Position numbers and translations under genes: made by a program. Of a stretch of 5,402 nucleotides of DNA, positions 1 through 5,402 are shown in pieces. The notes under the pieces are model-generated. The model was not told the origin of the DNA. It made no database searches and saw only the letters and a program-made list of their open reading frames with translations. Position 1 is the stretch's first letter. The number at the start of each line of letters is the position of its first letter. Origin of the DNA: Candidatus Aminicenantota bacterium (GTDB lineage Bacteria; Acidobacteriota; Aminicenantia; JAMOAD01); assembly GCA_027061995.1 (NCBI GenBank), contig JAMOUT010000094.1, forward strand, positions 1 through 5,402. Reading direction: 5' to 3'.

Positions 1-355
1 TGCAACATATCCTCCCTATTAGATAACCGGAGTGATTCTTATCAAAATACTCCATGGGATAATTAAAAACTTTCTCAAGTAATTTTTTTTGAATATCGAG
101 TATGCTCTCTTTCTGAAATTTGAAAAATGTTATTCTGTTAATATATGAAAATAGCTGGCTCAGTATTATAACAATTCCGAAGAATACTGTTATCAGTGTG
201 ATTTTCCCCGCATCTTTCGCTCCGAGCACCTCGTCTATAGCCCATTTCGGAAACATCGGATAGATTAGAGAAAGTCCCGATGATATCAGAAGAAATATCA
301 CGGGGATTATCCCTTTTTTCCAATATGGTAAAAGAAATTTAATGAATAGCTTCAT
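1..355 (-). CDS. ABC exporter, N-terminal transmembrane part (partial)
   Basis: This is the first 118 codons of an ABC exporter with the membrane domain at the N-terminus (MsbA-like half-transporter layout). The rest runs off the left edge, so the nucleotide-binding domain is not seen. Translation starts MKLFIKFLLPYWKKG, then has a hydrophobic segment at about residues 15-35 that ends in the family-typical PKWAIDEVLG stretch. A second hydrophobic segment lies at about 52-72, and the cytoplasmic-loop motif YPMEYFDKNHSGYLIGRI is at about 99-116. An in-frame TGA at 359-361 makes ATG 355 the first possible ATG; no strong ribosome binding site precedes it. It begins 16 bp after the LpxD-like gene stops, so it belongs to the same operon and is the likely exporter of the modified peptide. 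No C39 peptidase domain precedes the membrane domain, so it would not itself cleave a leader from its N-terminal side. A lipid or drug exporter role is possible. Confidence 0.85.
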   Translation of the reverse strand, partial: MKLFIKFLLPYWKKGIIPVIFLLISSGLSLIYPMFPKWAIDEVLGAKDAGKITLITVFFGIVIILSQLFSYINRITFFKFQKESILDIQKKLLEKVFNYPMEYFDKNHSGYLIGRICC

Positions 356-371
356 ATATCAATTCCGATTC

Positions 372-1391
372 TCAAAGTTCATCAAGCCATTTTTTTACTT
401 TTACCCATTTTTTTATCACTTTTCTTAAAAATATCTCTCTTCTCTTCCAATCTTCTACAGATGTAGCAGGAGAGCCTACTACTTTATTCCCTTCTTTTAC
501 ATTTTTTAACACTCCGCTCTTTGACACTATAAAAGCATTATGTCCTACTTTTATTTTATCATACAACCCGGACTTGGGACCTATCGACACCTCATCACCA
601 ATTTCAACTTCATCTCCTATGGCTGCTTGTCCTGCAATCCTACAATATCGCCCAATTTTTACACCCCTTGAAATATATACAAGAGCATCTATTTTACTCC
701 CACTACCGATTATTGTATCACTTAAATCATTTCGAGCTATAATAGAATTTGCTCCTATAAATATATTATCTTTTATTATGATTTTTCCCGTAAGCGGTAA
801 TGTTAATTCAAGTTTTCCTTTACCAAATCCACGGTTAAATCCTGTATTTCCTATACAAGCGTTATTTTCAATTACTACATTATTTCCTATTTCCACATTT
901 GATCTAATAATAACACCAGAATGAATTACACAATTTTTACCTATTTTTATATCATTATATATCGTAACATTAGGATAAATAACCGTATTATCATCTATCA
1001 TAACATTATCACCTATTACAGTATTATGACCTATTGATATATTTTCCCCTTTTTTAAATGCTTTTCCTATAAAAATATTTTTCCCGATTCCCTCTTCAAT
1101 TGATTCATTTATTTCAAAAAGAGAAAGTATCTTTTGAAATTTTTCATTCATATTCTTCGATGAAACAAGAATACAATGAAAACCTTCCATATTATATCTA
1201 CTTAAAAGTATTATATTTTTATTCTTTTTGTTGTTTAAATACTCTGGTAATTTTTTATCTTTACTTAAACACAAAGATAAATAATTTGGTTCTTCTTCAA
1301 GTAAATCTCTTACTCCCATAATCATTATATCTCCATTACCTGAATAGCTACAATTCAATTGACGAGCAAGTTTCTTTAGTTTTATACTCAT
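372..1391 (-). CDS. LpxD-like left-handed beta-helix acyltransferase homologue, degenerate active site
   Basis: This 339-residue protein has the LpxD (UDP-3-O-acylglucosamine N-acyltransferase) layout. It has an N-terminal domain at about 1-100 with the LpxD-like opening (LKKLARQLN, then a GDI..MGVRDL strand). Hexapeptide repeats follow at about 103-310 (IGHNTVIGDN, VTIYNDIKIGKN, FIGANSIIAR, DTIIGSGSKID, VKIGRYC), then a basic helical tail at 311-339 starting GSPATSVEDWKRR. Recalled LpxD has IAHN after KIDN, its His being the catalytic base; here the same place reads ISRG (Arg242). One extra coil of about 18 residues lies at about 164-181. His122, His157 and His284 sit in other coils. The ATG at 1391 is chosen over the ATG at 1427 because it matches the family N-terminus, overlaps the previous stop by 4 bp (ATGA) and has GGGAG 10 bp upstream. 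Inference: a peptide-modifying or substrate-binding protein rather than housekeeping LpxD; its donor and acceptor are unknown. Confidence 0.85.
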   Translation of the reverse strand: MSIKLKKLARQLNCSYSGNGDIMIMGVRDLLEEEPNYLSLCLSKDKKLPEYLNNKKNKNIILLSRYNMEGFHCILVSSKNMNEKFQKILSLFEINESIEEGIGKNIFIGKAFKKGENISIGHNTVIGDNVMIDDNTVIYPNVTIYNDIKIGKNCVIHSGVIIRSNVEIGNNVVIENNACIGNTGFNRGFGKGKLELTLPLTGKIIIKDNIFIGANSIIARNDLSDTIIGSGSKIDALVYISRGVKIGRYCRIAGQAAIGDEVEIGDEVSIGPKSGLYDKIKVGHNAFIVSKSGVLKNVKEGNKVVGSPATSVEDWKRREIFLRKVIKKWVKVKKWLDEL

Positions 1392-2155
1392 TTCACACTT
1401 TCTCCCGTATAAGGGTTGTAAAAACATTTAGGATTCTTTTCATACAGATTATTGCTTTTTCTCAAGGCAAGCTCCCTACAATCAAAACAAATATATCTAA
1501 ATTCGCAATCCTTACATATCTCTATTTTATCCTTTGTTAATTTCCAGTATTTTTCCATCCTTTTTAAAATCAAGCTAAACTCTTCCGAAAGCAGGTCTCC
1601 CACTACTATCTCACTATATATACATGGTCTTACCTTATTATCTTTAGTTATTGCTATTCTTTTACCCCAGCACGGATTATAATTCATATTAAATTCATAA
1701 AGATTTTTATCTATCTCCATAAGATGTTTTCCCGATTTTATACTACATTTTTTGAAATTTATTTTCTCCTTTTTTATTTTATCTGCAAAAAAATACTTTT
1801 CGATATCATCTTCTCCATAGTATCTGATAACGGCAATTTTTATCGGACCAAGCTTATTTTTTATAAATTCCAGATTAACTCTTTTGTCAACTTCAAGTTC
1901 AATTGAGATATTCATTTTTTTATCTTTATTGAAATTTATATATGGGATCCATCTGTTTTCATCAACCTTAATCAAAAGGTCTTCTTCCAAAGCACTATCC
2001 ATAAAATCCTTGATTTTAGCATATTCTCTGTTCTCGAAATCCTTTATTATTTTATTGTCCACATGATAAATATCTTTTTTCAAAAAATCTATTATTAAAC
2101 TTTTCACAATCCCTCTTTCAACTCTAATAAATTGATGGAATTTATATACCTTCAT
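1388..2155 (-). CDS. SPASM-domain protein without radical SAM motif (grasp-with-spasm SPASM-like)
   Basis: This 255-residue protein ends in a SPASM-like auxiliary Fe-S cluster region. Cys162 and Cys178 flank a CWGKRIAIT..VRPC strand pair, followed by Cys214-x2-Cys217-x5-Cys223-x2-Cys226 (CKDCEFRYICFDC) and Cys244 in PKCFYNPYTGE. The first 136 residues contain no Cys, so there is no CxxxCxxC and no classical radical SAM chemistry. The N-terminal stretch (KFHQFIRVERGIVKSLIIDF) and the tail NPYTGE resemble, from memory, the SPASM component of grasp-with-spasm RiPP systems (TIGR04193-type). That N-terminal region may form an RRE-like winged helix that binds the leader, which is inference. No ATP-grasp gene is visible; instead a complete radical SAM-SPASM enzyme is two genes upstream. 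ATG 2155 is chosen over the in-frame TTG 2197 because GAGAGG lies 5 bp upstream. It overlaps the lipoprotein gene by 14 bp and the LpxD-like gene by 4 bp. Likely a maturation partner or scaffold. Confidence 0.8.
   Translation of the reverse strand: MKVYKFHQFIRVERGIVKSLIIDFLKKDIYHVDNKIIKDFENREYAKIKDFMDSALEEDLLIKVDENRWIPYINFNKDKKMNISIELEVDKRVNLEFIKNKLGPIKIAVIRYYGEDDIEKYFFADKIKKEKINFKKCSIKSGKHLMEIDKNLYEFNMNYNPCWGKRIAITKDNKVRPCIYSEIVVGDLLSEEFSLILKRMEKYWKLTKDKIEICKDCEFRYICFDCRELALRKSNNLYEKNPKCFYNPYTGESVK
1402..1406 (-). promoter_or_regulatory. Ribosome binding site of the LpxD-like gene
   Basis: GGGAG lies 10 bases before ATG 1391, inside the last codons of the SPASM gene. With the ATGA stop-start overlap it indicates translational coupling and argues against the upstream ATG 1427. 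Confidence 0.65.
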
Positions 2156-3500
2156 TATTACCTCTCTTTTTATCCTTTTCTTTCTCCGATATTTCAATAT
2201 TTTTTTTAGGAAGCTTAAATCTGCAGTATCTGACTATGTCATCCCATTCTTTTGTCCTGTCCCCGTAAACATATATCCCTTTCTCATAATCAATGAAAAA
2301 TGATTTCCTTATAGCGCTAACTTCATGTAGCTCCTTTCCGAAAAATGTTCCGAAAGGTAATACAATAGTCTCCTCATAATCTCCGTTATCACTTTTTATA
2401 ATATCCATAAACATCAATTTTTTCTTACTATCTACCCCCGAAACAAATCCTATCCTATCTCTGCCTACTTTAACCATCCTCAAAAAATATAACTTACCTT
2501 TATAAGAGTTATAAAAAATCCTACCCCCGGCTTTTATTGTTCTGGGATTATTCGACCAATCTTTCATCCTGTATGTCCCTATGTTATAAGCATCTTTGTC
2601 CGTATATACCGTCGGATTAAGCCACTCAAGTTTTATAAACACTGTTTTCCCCGTATCTATATCTCTAACATAATAACCCTGTTCAAAATTATACGAATAA
2701 AACATATTTCCATCCATTATAAAACCTGAAGATAATGGAACAATATAATACATATAATACAGATTGATACCTCCCGACTCATCACTGTGTACCATATCAA
2801 CCTTTATTTTTTTTAAATCCACTGTCTTTTCCCATGATAATTTATCTTTGAACGAGAGATCCAAAATACCTGACCTGAATCTATTTTCAGTCTCTTTCCT
2901 TATTGTATTACCTGTATAGATTTCGTGCTTATATCCGATTAAAACTTTTCTCTTATTCCCTTTTTTGAAAAACGAGAGATAGCTAAATGAGAATTCGGAA
3001 TAGTCATAATCAAAAAAGGTTGCTTTTAAACAGGCCAGGTCCTTATCAAGAAAAACTATTTTATTATAGTTTAAAATATAATAATTATTATTAAAATAAT
3101 ATACATAAACGGGAATCAATGCATTTGCGAATGTATCGGTAAAACAAGCGGGGGAATGATAATCTCCCATTAATAACCTCTTTTTATCCTTTATCTCCCC
3201 CGTATTCATATCAATCATCTCAAGTAATAGTTTTCCGTTTTTCCTCTCTGTATGATGGTCAACTATATAAAACTCATTCTTTTCAAATGACACTCCCGCA
3301 TAACGATTACCCCCTATATCCTTACCATAAACCTTTACCTCTCTTATGTTGGGGCTTACTATCTTTTTCTCAACTTTACCCTTTACTATAGTCTTTATAT
3401 TTCTTCTTATCTCCTCTTTCTCATTTTTCTTGCAGCCAACCATCATCAATATGGAAATCATTAAAATAACACAAACTAAAATATTATTTTTGATTCGCAT
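2142..3500 (-). CDS. RiPP-operon lipoprotein, possible beta-propeller
   Basis: This 452-residue protein has a basic N-terminus (MRIKNN), a hydrophobic core at about 7-21 and a lipobox MVGC with the lipidated Cys at residue 23. Lys-Lys-Asn follows the Cys, with no Asp at +2, so by the E. coli rule it would go to the outer membrane. The mature part repeats short strands of the kind FYIVD, YYILNYNKIVFLD, KVLIGY, GFIMDGNMFYSYN, IFYNSYKGKLYFL and KGIYVYGD at roughly 40-70 residue intervals. This suggests a beta-propeller, but no diagnostic domain was recognised. Six-bladed propeller lipoproteins accompany short secreted peptides in some Bacteroidota (family knowledge, not proven here). It sits between the two SPASM genes, overlapping the radical SAM gene by 17 bp and the SPASM gene by 14 bp, so it is co-translated with the modification enzymes. 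ATG 3500 is preferred to the in-frame TTG 3506 because GAGGAGG is 9 bp upstream of the ATG but only 3 bp from the TTG. Possible roles are immunity, receptor or extracytoplasmic processing. Confidence 0.8.
   Translation of the reverse strand: MRIKNNILVCVILMISILMMVGCKKNEKEEIRRNIKTIVKGKVEKKIVSPNIREVKVYGKDIGGNRYAGVSFEKNEFYIVDHHTERKNGKLLLEMIDMNTGEIKDKKRLLMGDYHSPACFTDTFANALIPVYVYYFNNNYYILNYNKIVFLDKDLACLKATFFDYDYSEFSFSYLSFFKKGNKRKVLIGYKHEIYTGNTIRKETENRFRSGILDLSFKDKLSWEKTVDLKKIKVDMVHSDESGGINLYYMYYIVPLSSGFIMDGNMFYSYNFEQGYYVRDIDTGKTVFIKLEWLNPTVYTDKDAYNIGTYRMKDWSNNPRTIKAGGRIFYNSYKGKLYFLRMVKVGRDRIGFVSGVDSKKKLMFMDIIKSDNGDYEETIVLPFGTFFGKELHEVSAIRKSFFIDYEKGIYVYGDRTKEWDDIVRYCRFKLPKKNIEISEKEKDKKRGNNEGI
2161..2166 (-). 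promoter_or_regulatory. Ribosome binding site deciding the SPASM-protein start
   Basis: GAGAGG lies 5 bases before ATG 2155, within the end of the lipoprotein gene. It supports ATG 2155 over the in-frame TTG at 2197, removing 14 lysine- and arginine-rich residues from the longest reading. Confidence 0.75.
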
Positions 3501-4788
3501 ACTCAAATACCTCCTCTTGATTTAATTCTATATATCTTTCCATTGAATATTCTATAAAACTCCTCCTATCTCTGCAAAATTCTTCGGACAACGAAAAGTA
3601 TCCGTCATTTTCTATTGATGCAAAGCATAAATCACATAAAAACCTATACGAGCACCTCGAGCAGCTTTTTTTTAATGTTTTTTTAAAATTATAATATATA
3701 TCCACCATCTTTTTATAATCATAACCGTTTCTATAATCTCCTATTTTAAATCTATGATTTCCCCGTTCACATATGTGAAAATCTCCATTAACGGTTATAA
3801 AAGCCCTGCTGTTAAACCTACATGTACTTTGAGTATGAAAATATATCCTCTTATCTAACTTGTCTTGAATATTATAAATTTCAATAAATGCCCTGTCTAT
3901 TGCCAACAATCTCTTCTTTTCTCTAACTTTACTCTTTATCTGCTCAAATATTCTGTCTTCTTCAGCTTTCCTGTTTGACTCGTATTCAAAGTTGTCATAC
4001 AAATCGGAATTAATCCTGCTTGCATCTCCGATACTTATGCTTCCTATATATTCAAATATTTTTTTATTATTGAAAAAATCATATATTTCAAGTAATGATA
4101 GTTCGGAAGAATGTGTGACCCCTATACTAATATGTTCTGAAAAATATCTTTTACTTTTCTTATAAATTAATTCAAGATTCCTTATTATCCTCTCAAATGT
4201 CCCTTTTCCGTTAATATAGACTCTGTAAGCATCATGATTTTTTTCGGGACCATCAATACTTATCCTCATATCAAACTCTTTTGATATCATATATTTAATT
4301 ATATCTTTTTTATGAAGCAAAGTCCCGTTCGTTGATAGAATATAATGAATTTTCCAATCATAAAACCTCTTTTCAAAATAATCAACAATCTCCCTCATTA
4401 GAGATAAATTCAATAAAGGTTCTCCCCCATAGAAAGCAAGTCCTATCTCATTATCCGGAGAATTTTTGAGCAAATTATAAAAATAATCTATTGTTTTTCT
4501 TGCTATATCAAAATTCATGCAATTTTTACTATGTTTTCTGTGAAAATAAAAGTGGCCACTGTAAATACAGTATTTGCATCTTAAATTACAATTTTCCGTT
4601 AATTCAAATACAATCGTATTTATCCGTTTAACCTCTTCCCTGACTAACGCCTCATTTAATAAAATGCTTCGGTTTTTCACCGTCTTACCGTATTTTTTTA
4701 AAATATTCTCTGTTTTGGTATTTGTAAGAATATTATAATCGGGAAGATATGAATATTCTTTATTATTAAAGTAAATTTGTTCATTCAT
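3484..4788 (-). CDS. Radical SAM/SPASM peptide maturase
   Basis: This 434-residue enzyme is expected to use a [4Fe-4S] cluster and S-adenosylmethionine to modify a small peptide in the cytoplasm. The cluster motif is CNLRCKYC (Cys67, Cys71, Cys74), followed by the YSGHF..HRKHS stretch seen in many peptide maturases. The SAM-binding AFYGGEPLLN is at about 118-127, STNGT at 152-156 and RISIDGP at 175-181. The C-terminal SPASM region has Cys323-x11-Gly-x4-Cys340, then Cys376-x2-Cys379-x5-Cys385-x2-Cys388 and a final Cys405. That is enough Cys for two auxiliary clusters, although the last spacing is x2 rather than the usual x3. Residues 1-55 form a short N-terminal region that may help bind the leader. 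ATG 4788 has AGGAG 9 bp upstream. It is the first large gene after the candidate precursor and is coupled by a 17-bp overlap to the lipoprotein gene. The exact product (thioether, C-C or C-O crosslink) cannot be read from the sequence; a sulfatase-maturase-like role is less likely because no sulfatase is nearby. Confidence 0.93.
   Translation of the reverse strand: MNEQIYFNNKEYSYLPDYNILTNTKTENILKKYGKTVKNRSILLNEALVREEVKRINTIVFELTENCNLRCKYCIYSGHFYFHRKHSKNCMNFDIARKTIDYFYNLLKNSPDNEIGLAFYGGEPLLNLSLMREIVDYFEKRFYDWKIHYILSTNGTLLHKKDIIKYMISKEFDMRISIDGPEKNHDAYRVYINGKGTFERIIRNLELIYKKSKRYFSEHISIGVTHSSELSLLEIYDFFNNKKIFEYIGSISIGDASRINSDLYDNFEYESNRKAEEDRIFEQIKSKVREKKRLLAIDRAFIEIYNIQDKLDKRIYFHTQSTCRFNSRAFITVNGDFHICERGNHRFKIGDYRNGYDYKKMVDIYYNFKKTLKKSCSRCSYRFLCDLCFASIENDGYFSLSEEFCRDRRSFIEYSMERYIELNQEEVFEYANQK
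3510..3516 (-). promoter_or_regulatory. Ribosome binding site deciding the lipoprotein start
   Basis: GAGGAGG lies inside the 3' end of the radical SAM gene, 9 bases before ATG 3500 and only 3 bases before the in-frame TTG 3506. This makes the ATG the start and shortens the protein by two residues. Confidence 0.8.
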
Positions 4789-4797
4789 CTTACAACA

Positions 4798-4802
4798 CTC
4801 CT
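4798..4802 (-). promoter_or_regulatory. Ribosome binding site of the radical SAM gene
   Basis: AGGAG (in AAAAGGAGTG) lies 9 bases before ATG 4788, directly after the hairpin. Melting or folding of the nearby A/T-rich segment could affect its access, which is inference. Confidence 0.75.
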
Positions 4803-4816
4803 TTTATTAAATATAT

Positions 4817-4843
4817 ACGGAGAGGATATAAAACCCTCTCCGT
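4817..4843 (-). terminator. Attenuator-like hairpin between precursor and maturase genes
   Basis: ACGGAGAGG and CCTCTCCGT form a perfect 9-bp stem with a 9-base loop, just downstream of the precursor stop codon and about 28 bp before the radical SAM start. On the transcribed strand the stem is followed by an A/U stretch (ATATATTTAATAAAAG) rather than a clean U tract, so it is a weak or partial terminator or an mRNA-stabilising hairpin. Either would let precursor transcripts outnumber enzyme transcripts, which is inference. Confidence 0.5.
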
Positions 4844-4857
4844 TATAAAATAACCGC

Positions 4858-4995
4858 TTACACTTTTGGTTTGTGATATTCTCTATATGTTTCAGTATAA
4901 GGTCTACCTATCTTACAACATTTCTCACATTGGTTTTTAGATTCTAATACGATTGTTCTTATTATACTATTGTTAGTTTTAATTTTCTTTAACAT
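4858..4995 (-). CDS. Candidate RiPP precursor peptide, 45 aa
   Basis: This short ORF lies directly upstream of the radical SAM maturase and has the strongest ribosome binding site in the window (AAGGAGGA, 5 bp before ATG 4995). The peptide starts MLKKIKTNNSIIRTIV, a basic and aliphatic leader-like half. It then has Cys23, Cys26 and Cys27 in NQCEKCC and an aromatic segment, GRPYTETYREYH, with Tyr at 33, 37 and 40, ending HKPKV. Such a Cys/Tyr-rich C-terminal half next to a SPASM radical SAM enzyme fits a precursor that receives thioether or aromatic crosslinks (inference). There is no double-glycine leader motif, no signal peptide and no similarity I recognise to a named precursor family. The peptide ends 14 bp before a hairpin that separates it from the maturase gene, an arrangement common for highly expressed precursors. 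Alternative: a small zinc-binding protein, but CxxCC with only three Cys is a poor zinc site. Confidence 0.75.
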   Translation of the reverse strand: MLKKIKTNNSIIRTIVLESKNQCEKCCKIGRPYTETYREYHKPKV

Positions 4996-5008: not shown

Positions 5009-5207
5009 AATTTTAATTAATTTTTAATTCTTTCAACAAAATATAAAATACTAAACATTTAACGAGCGGAAGGGTTTTAATTCGAGCAGCCGCAACTTCG
5101 TGTAGCCGAGCAGTCGTTCCGGCTTATAAGGCAACTCTTCGGGATACCACCAAACAAAACTTCAGACTCTTTCTAATTTTAACTAATTCACAAATTTAAA
5201 ATTCAGC

Positions 5208-5227
5208 CCGCCACGGCGGATCTCCGC
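5208..5227. repeat. Two overlapping GC-rich palindromes
   Basis: CCGCC-AC-GGCGG (5208-5219) overlaps GCGGA-TC-TCCGC (5216-5227), so the middle arm can pair in either direction. GGCGGA at 5215-5220 can also pair with TCCGCC at 5268-5273, and CTCCGCT at 5222-5228 is repeated at 5273-5279. The loops of the perfect pairings are very short (2 bases), so real hairpins would open one base pair. It may be a dispersed intergenic repeat or a transcription terminator for the upstream gene. Confidence 0.6.
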
Positions 5228-5239
5228 TAACACTTCGAC

Positions 5240-5267
5240 ATTCATAATTCAGCATTCAGAATTCTTC
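5240..5267. repeat. Imperfect heptamer tandem repeat (ATTCAgN x4)
   Basis: Four consecutive 7-base units read ATTCATA, ATTCAGC, ATTCAGA and ATTCTTC. A fifth isolated ATTCAGC occurs at 5201-5207. The 7-base period is seen directly; such short tandem repeats often mark intergenic repeat cassettes. Confidence 0.7.
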
Positions 5268-5278
5268 TCCGCCTCCGC

Positions 5279-5401
5279 TCATTTCATCGGAAATTTCAGT
5301 CTTGTTTTTAACCACATATTTACACCTCCTCCATCAAAGCTTAAAGCATAGAGCCTCGAAGCATCGGAGCTAAAAACATTTTCGGGCAGCTGCACCAATT
5401 T
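5279..5401 (-). CDS. Possible C-terminal end of an upstream gene (partial, unidentified)
   Basis: From the right edge one minus-strand frame stays open for 40 codons to a TGA at 5279-5281. It reads KLVQLPENVFSS, then RLYALSFDGGGVN, then MWLKTRLKFPMK. The residue mix is protein-like, and it would be the 3' end of a gene preceding the RiPP operon on the same strand. No family was recognised. An open frame of this length can arise by chance, and its AGGAGGTG codons also look like a ribosome binding site. That site lies 7 bases before an in-frame ATG (5317) and 9 bases before an out-of-frame GTG (5315) that opens a 19-residue ORF. The sequence beyond the edge would decide. Confidence 0.35.
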   Translation of the reverse strand, partial: KLVQLPENVFSSDASRLYALSFDGGGVNMWLKTRLKFPMK

Positions 5402-5402
5402 T

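Follow-up and report, generated by a model that had tools for sequence, protein, structure and literature searches.

A putative RiPP gene cluster of the Aminicenantia with a predicted two-subunit radical SAM maturase

The gene cluster

The window analyzed here is an entire contig of 5,402 bases (G000:C94, 1-5402) from a metagenome-assembled genome (MAG) of the class Aminicenantia that is 2.36 Mb in size and 95% complete (G denotes a genome, C a contig and L a mapped locus or surrounding region; G000 is the window's genome). Six genes, all on the minus strand and in the same direction, encode a short precursor peptide, a radical S-adenosylmethionine (SAM) enzyme with a SPASM domain, a lipoprotein, a protein with a SPASM domain only, an LpxD-like protein and an ATP-binding cassette (ABC) transporter. 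They are read here as a candidate cluster for a ribosomally synthesized and post-translationally modified peptide (RiPP) with a two-subunit maturase. The radical SAM and lipoprotein genes share 17 bp (lipoprotein ATG at 3500), the lipoprotein and SPASM-only genes 14 bp (SPASM-only ATG at 2155), and the SPASM-only and LpxD-like genes 4 bp (LpxD-like ATG at 1391); a 16-bp gap separates the LpxD-like gene from the start of the ABC gene at 355.

These coordinates bear out the co-directional arrangement, with its overlaps and short gap, that had been described in a sequence-only reading of the same DNA. Its family calls (LpxD, SPASM only, radical SAM-SPASM, ABC membrane domain) also agree with the family and domain matches. 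That reading had further proposed a single transcript; here an attenuator-like hairpin with an 11-bp stem (4843-4817), lying between the precursor and radical SAM genes, has to be allowed for.

The radical SAM enzyme

The catalytic enzyme (P0004, 434 aa; 3484..4788, minus strand) carries CX3CX2C at residues 67-74. The C67-C71-C74 core, seven SPASM cysteines and an adjacent short precursor gene place it in the superfamily of radical SAM/SPASM peptide maturases. Its best family match is TIGR04068 (CcpM), at 228.4 bits against a cut-off of 500; with TIGR04148 it scores 188 bits, below the cut-off of 300.

The motif lies close to the N terminus. It is found at residues 64-77 in those catalytic enzymes that lack a long upstream start, and at 111-122 in the full second radical SAM enzymes of the class. 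In the thuricin CD enzymes TrnC and TrnD the corresponding positions are C114 and C109, respectively (PMC12093266). The radical SAM profile first aligns to CteB and TigE 40-50 residues into their chains. Enzymes that bear a RiPP recognition element (RRE) need about 105-120 residues ahead of the motif, and the N terminus of the catalytic enzyme seems too short for an RRE of its own. Since CX3CX2C seems to be reached too early for an RRE, leader recognition has most likely shifted to the SPASM-only partner.

The SPASM-only partner

The SPASM-only accessory protein (P0002; 1388..2155, minus strand) has eight cysteines in a SPASM pattern that are invariant across 21 aligned SPASM-only rows, and CX3CX2C is absent from P0002 and from all 21. 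In the AlphaFold model (pLDDT 90), residues 16-80 align with RREs, namely lasso B1 proteins (6jx3_B, Z 6.9, rmsd 2.2 Å; another at Z 6.6), and the N-domain gives further matches to TruD, MccB and ThcOx. Residues 93-267 align with the SPASM parts of TigE, CteB, PqqE and SuiB. The N-domain was assigned as an RRE, despite the modest Z-scores, because its matches are consistently RiPP leader-binding proteins. It contains an invariant F.Q......G.......D pattern. Thus the protein is predicted to consist of a winged-helix RRE and a SPASM domain with no radical SAM core, and to be a putative leader binder. The seven SPASM cysteines of the catalytic enzyme would fit an Aux I site open for the substrate, and the eight of the partner a closed cluster.

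A rather unlikely alternative gives the SPASM-only protein a scaffolding role, redox or structural, and lets the radical SAM enzyme read the leader by its own N-terminal region of about 55 residues. In its favor, the invariance of all eight cysteines indicates strong selection on the iron-sulfur (Fe-S) clusters. The RRE-like N-domain of the predicted model, and the invariant residues within it, argue instead for the leader-binding partner.

Related clusters contain a graded series of partner proteins. Full second radical SAM-type proteins with CX3CX2C (L057, L058, L060) are followed by shortened partners that keep the motif (L063, L065, L066), shortened partners in which it is gone (L056, L064, L068), and then the window type. 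L058 and L060 each have two full radical SAM-type proteins together with propeller and ABC genes, an arrangement that is possibly ancestral. In a SPASM-domain tree the included partner proteins of this series, together with gwsS of Elizabethkingia, split from the catalytic SPASM domains with 100/100 support; the partner therefore did not arise by recent duplication of its catalytic enzyme. Support for the inner forks is poor, too low to place the losses of the core in order.

Conservation of the core genes

At a threshold of E<=1e-15 the SPASM-only protein was matched in 16 of the 142 class genomes and in 8 of 396 of a phylum sample, seven of the eight within the class; other members of the phylum gave at most weak SPASM matches. 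The relatives found by profile are Candidatus Aminicenantes and Acidobacteriota MAGs. The radical SAM enzyme as a single-protein query recovered no relatives from genome contigs, whereas the SPASM-only profile succeeded. No relatives were found in viral contigs, and the only match in plasmids was gwsS of Elizabethkingia, confined to the SPASM domain.

Thirty-four surrounding regions were fetched, and homologues of all six proteins were mapped onto them. The window-type SPASM-only protein occupies about 28 places, the window and L119 included. Three (L036, L048, L062) are too near contig ends to judge, and a homologous radical SAM gene, adjoining or fused, was counted from the maps at 23 of the 25 judgeable places; the exceptions are one of the four L047 copies and L069. 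Five or more families of the class show this pairing. In six loci (L037, L038, L041, L046, L047, L050) the two proteins are fused into a chain of ~700 aa. L055 has the order precursor-radical SAM-lipoprotein-SPASM-ABC, which is the order of the window minus LpxD. An M16-type protein with HxxEH is encoded downstream in L036, L039, L044, L051 (as a fragment), L053 and L119.

The core genes are therefore not scattered but co-occur across the mapped loci, and their neighborhood is not accidental. The precursor, radical SAM and SPASM-only genes recur together as a distinct RiPP-type cluster, as had been suggested from the window. As for the six-gene set as a unit, the core recurs and the LpxD-like gene is only an add-on. 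It is very improbable that the window holds a chance or decaying neighborhood, a generic radical SAM RiPP operon beside unrelated envelope genes. The rarity of LpxD and the broken genes in the G089, G098, G027 and G014 clusters would suit such a neighborhood. The repetition across families, the fusions, the translational overlaps and the invariant cysteines speak against it, and the mapped co-occurrence refutes it for the core genes; it could hold for LpxD only.

Some loci are incomplete. In L036 (G089:C110) the M16, propeller and ABC genes beyond the LpxD homologue look split or truncated. The SPASM gene is split in L055 and L054, and in L059 the radical SAM gene lacks an internal piece and is reduced in length.

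The precursor peptides and the intergenic hairpin

The precursor gene (4858..4995, minus strand) encodes a 45-aa peptide, MLKKIKTNNSIIRTIVLESKNQCEKCCKIGRPYTETYREYHKPKV. It has a strong ribosome-binding site, AAGGAGG, and ends 69 nt upstream of the radical SAM gene. An MLKK(L/I)T-type start is common to small open reading frames (ORFs) upstream of the radical SAM genes of these clusters. Eighteen precursor ORFs were chosen by eye, which biases the count to cysteine-bearing candidates but not to exact spacing or tail length. Among these, CX3CX3C is present in 14 (shuffled sequences: mean 0.09, maximum 2), and the tail beyond the last cysteine is 16-20 residues long in 15. The window precursor keeps the MLKK-type start, three clustered cysteines and a tail of 18 residues. 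One locus, L047 (G080:C499), is an expanded array with four SPASM-only modules, one of them fused, and at least three precursors in 10 kb.

A T-rich tail follows the stem of the hairpin downstream of the precursor gene (4817..4843, minus strand). With z = -4.5 the 75 nt around it fold far above chance stability, and strong hairpins occupy the same position in sister clusters L039, L042, L044, L047 and L053. Rfam gave zero matches in the window. The hairpin may be a partial terminator that yields more peptide than enzyme.

The propeller lipoprotein

The lipoprotein (2142..3500, minus strand; lipobox ...LMMVGC) is predicted to be a six-bladed NHL/TolB-like beta-propeller. Pfam found nothing in it or in its family; the propeller was revealed by the predicted fold (pLDDT 77), whose top matches are NHL domains (Z 17.5) and the Bacteroides DUF4221 structure 3s9j (Z 17.0). 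The lipoprotein profile also picks up the propellers encoded in the fused clusters, with a probability of 95%. Lipoproteins of the window family occur in nine clusters (the window, L036, L040, L043, L048, L054, L055, L059, L069), between the radical SAM and SPASM genes wherever the contig permits. Other propeller proteins lie downstream of five of the fusions (L037, L038, L041, L046, L050), and several of those downstream of fusions have Pfam DUF5128/TolB_like matches. Altogether a propeller protein is present in about half of the clusters.

The LpxD-like protein

The LpxD paralogue (372..1391, minus strand) is full length, with an N-terminal domain and a hexapeptide left-handed helix. It scores 227.5 bits with TIGR01853, under the equivalog cut-off of 242.5, and passes that of the broader PRK00892 subfamily (240 vs 207). 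A canonical LpxD is encoded elsewhere in the window genome (G000:C10, 344.8 bits) and also elsewhere in G089, the genome of the one other cluster, among about 28, that has the LpxD-like gene. The two cluster copies are 49% identical, each overlaps its SPASM gene by 4 bp, and they form a clade of their own (100/100) apart from 31 other LpxD rows. Most simply, LpxD was recruited into the cluster before the window and G089 lineages split, or it moved with the cluster. The catalytic His (H239 in E. coli) is Arg in the window copy (residue 254 of a 351-aa ORF starting at 1427) and is retained in the G089 homologue and all 31 other rows. With this residue lost, the window copy is probably without transferase activity.

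An acylated product had been considered possible in the sequence-only reading. A lipidated RiPP, acylated by the LpxD-like protein and then retained at the envelope alongside the propeller lipoprotein, is unlikely. The separate clade, the shared 4-bp overlap, the canonical LpxD elsewhere in both genomes and the His of the G089 copy would fit it; the Arg of the window copy and the lack of the gene in about 26 of 28 related clusters do not. For the window the acylated peptide was set aside, the catalytic His of its copy being lost. Also improbable is a broader proposal, a RiPP class with a de-catalyzed radical SAM protein (RRE plus SPASM, core deleted) as an obligate subunit that would recognize the leader and contribute extra Fe-S clusters in trans. 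In one lineage of this class a recruited LpxD-type protein would lipidate the cross-linked product, bound for the cell envelope. The LpxD-like protein appears to be a late, dispensable addition to the cluster.

The contig ends and a second locus

The contig end truncates the ABC gene (2..355, minus strand). The ABC exporter of the sequence-only reading is upheld as far as the membrane domain, which was matched; the type of exporter is not readable from this N-terminal fragment of 118 aa. A contig continuing the gene was looked for, with no clear candidate. The opposite terminus (5030-5402) is an intergenic repeat dispersed in the window genome, with 33 matches, and its presence would account for the contig breaking off there. 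One near-full-length copy (90%) is at G000:C30:408-793, and a stretch of ~40 bp is repeated at about 90% or higher. Elsewhere in the genome, L034 (G000:C89) has a further radical SAM-SPASM-like gene (407 aa), with a 272-aa ORF and a lipoprotein-like ORF downstream; it is a possible second peptide-modifying locus.

Proposed pathway

Taken together, a RiPP cluster with a two-subunit maturase, consisting of a catalytic radical SAM enzyme and a core-deleted RRE-SPASM partner, is given a probability of roughly 0.6, its chemistry being predicted from sequences and models. The product is probably a small cross-linked peptide of a sactipeptide/ranthipeptide-like pathway. In such a pathway the hairpin would keep the precursor in excess over the enzymes. 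The RRE domain of the SPASM-only subunit would bind the leader, and the subunit would dock on the catalytic enzyme. By radical chemistry this enzyme would join the clustered cysteines, most likely as Cys thioethers, to residues of the C-terminal tail of ~18 residues, giving a hairpin-shaped peptide like that of sactipeptides. The auxiliary Fe-S clusters of the SPASM-only protein would be structural or electron-passing. The ABC transporter would export the product, on which the membrane-anchored propeller lipoprotein may act beyond the inner membrane as a receptor, immunity or anchoring factor. The M16-type peptidase of sister clusters probably cuts off the leader.

Several observations weigh against this pathway. 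A propeller, peptidase or exporter is not in view in every cluster, several clusters sit on short MAG contigs, and some (L036, L054, L055, L059) contain broken genes. The spacing in the window precursor is CX2CC rather than CX3CX3C. RRE Z-scores below 8 are weak by themselves, and the SPASM-only protein may act purely as a scaffold that makes no contact with the leader.

Relation to known systems

The kinds of component are known: radical SAM-SPASM maturases, RREs, SPASM proteins without the radical SAM motif (gwsS), propeller lipoproteins and ABC export. A catalytic radical SAM enzyme with a core-deleted RRE-SPASM partner, fusions included, was not found described in the open-access literature, nor was a relevant paper on RiPPs of the Aminicenantes found in open-access text.

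In GG-Bacteroidales systems (TIGR04148/TIGR04150) a radical SAM enzyme is paired with a pseudo-radical SAM SPASM protein. The pairing is alike, and the catalytic enzyme of the window matches TIGR04148. P0002 has no match to TIGR04150 at E<0.1, and its relatives score 19-37 bits against a cut-off of 250. The maturases of cysteine-rich peptides of the CcpM type (TIGR04068) and the ranthipeptide-type enzymes CteB, PapB and TigE resemble the window enzyme in their cysteine-bearing precursors and in a SPASM domain with seven cysteines, but CteB and TigE have an RRE region for which the window enzyme seems too short. The LpxD-like protein differs from LpxD (TIGR01853) as a second, divergent copy.

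The SPASM-only protein had been called grasp-with-spasm-like, which holds for the SPASM domain. Its nearest annotated relative found is gwsS (44% over the SPASM domain), which also lacks CX3CX2C. It is ~90 aa shorter and scores 86.8 bits with TIGR04193, under the 175-bit cut-off. The gwsS partner in grasp-with-spasm (TIGR04192/TIGR04193, gwsG/gwsS) is an ATP-grasp protein, here a radical SAM enzyme, and TIGR04192 has no match in the window genome. By these criteria the system falls outside the grasp-with-spasm family. As a further likeness, grasp-with-spasm precursors have MKKL starts (PMC8939145). Another Aminicenantia MAG carries a grasp-with-spasm-type pair (L067/L170, G076:C114), in which the ATP-grasp gene exceeds the cut-off at 276.8 bits and adjoins a SPASM gene.

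The closest likeness in proposed function, drawn with no claim of membership, is to the two-protein maturase of thuricin CD. TrnC and TrnD form a tight complex in which the RREs mediate pairing, radical SAM activity is essential for TrnC only, and TrnD is modeled as the leader binder (PMC12093266). Cys5, Cys9 and Cys13 of thuricin CD (CX3CX3C) are linked to C-terminal acceptors (PMC8172795). The general layout of the precursors, clustered cysteines before a putative acceptor tail, is similar, with no claim of the same chemistry. CX3CX3C itself is present in 14 of the 18 and not in the window precursor (CX2CC); the spacing is an arrangement seen in thuricin CD and not a class requirement. TrnD is a full SAM-cleaving radical SAM enzyme, unlike the window partner.

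Maturation of thuricin CD can almost do without the radical chemistry of TrnD but not without the protein itself. In the Aminicenantia evolution seems to have removed TrnD-like chemistry, leaving RRE and SPASM, and in six cases to have fused these to the catalytic enzyme. The partner would thus be a natural minimal protein with which to probe the function of a second subunit and of the auxiliary Fe-S clusters it carries, and the precursors, with their conserved CX3CX3C-plus-tail design, would be an additional peptide family in a little-studied, largely uncultured lineage.
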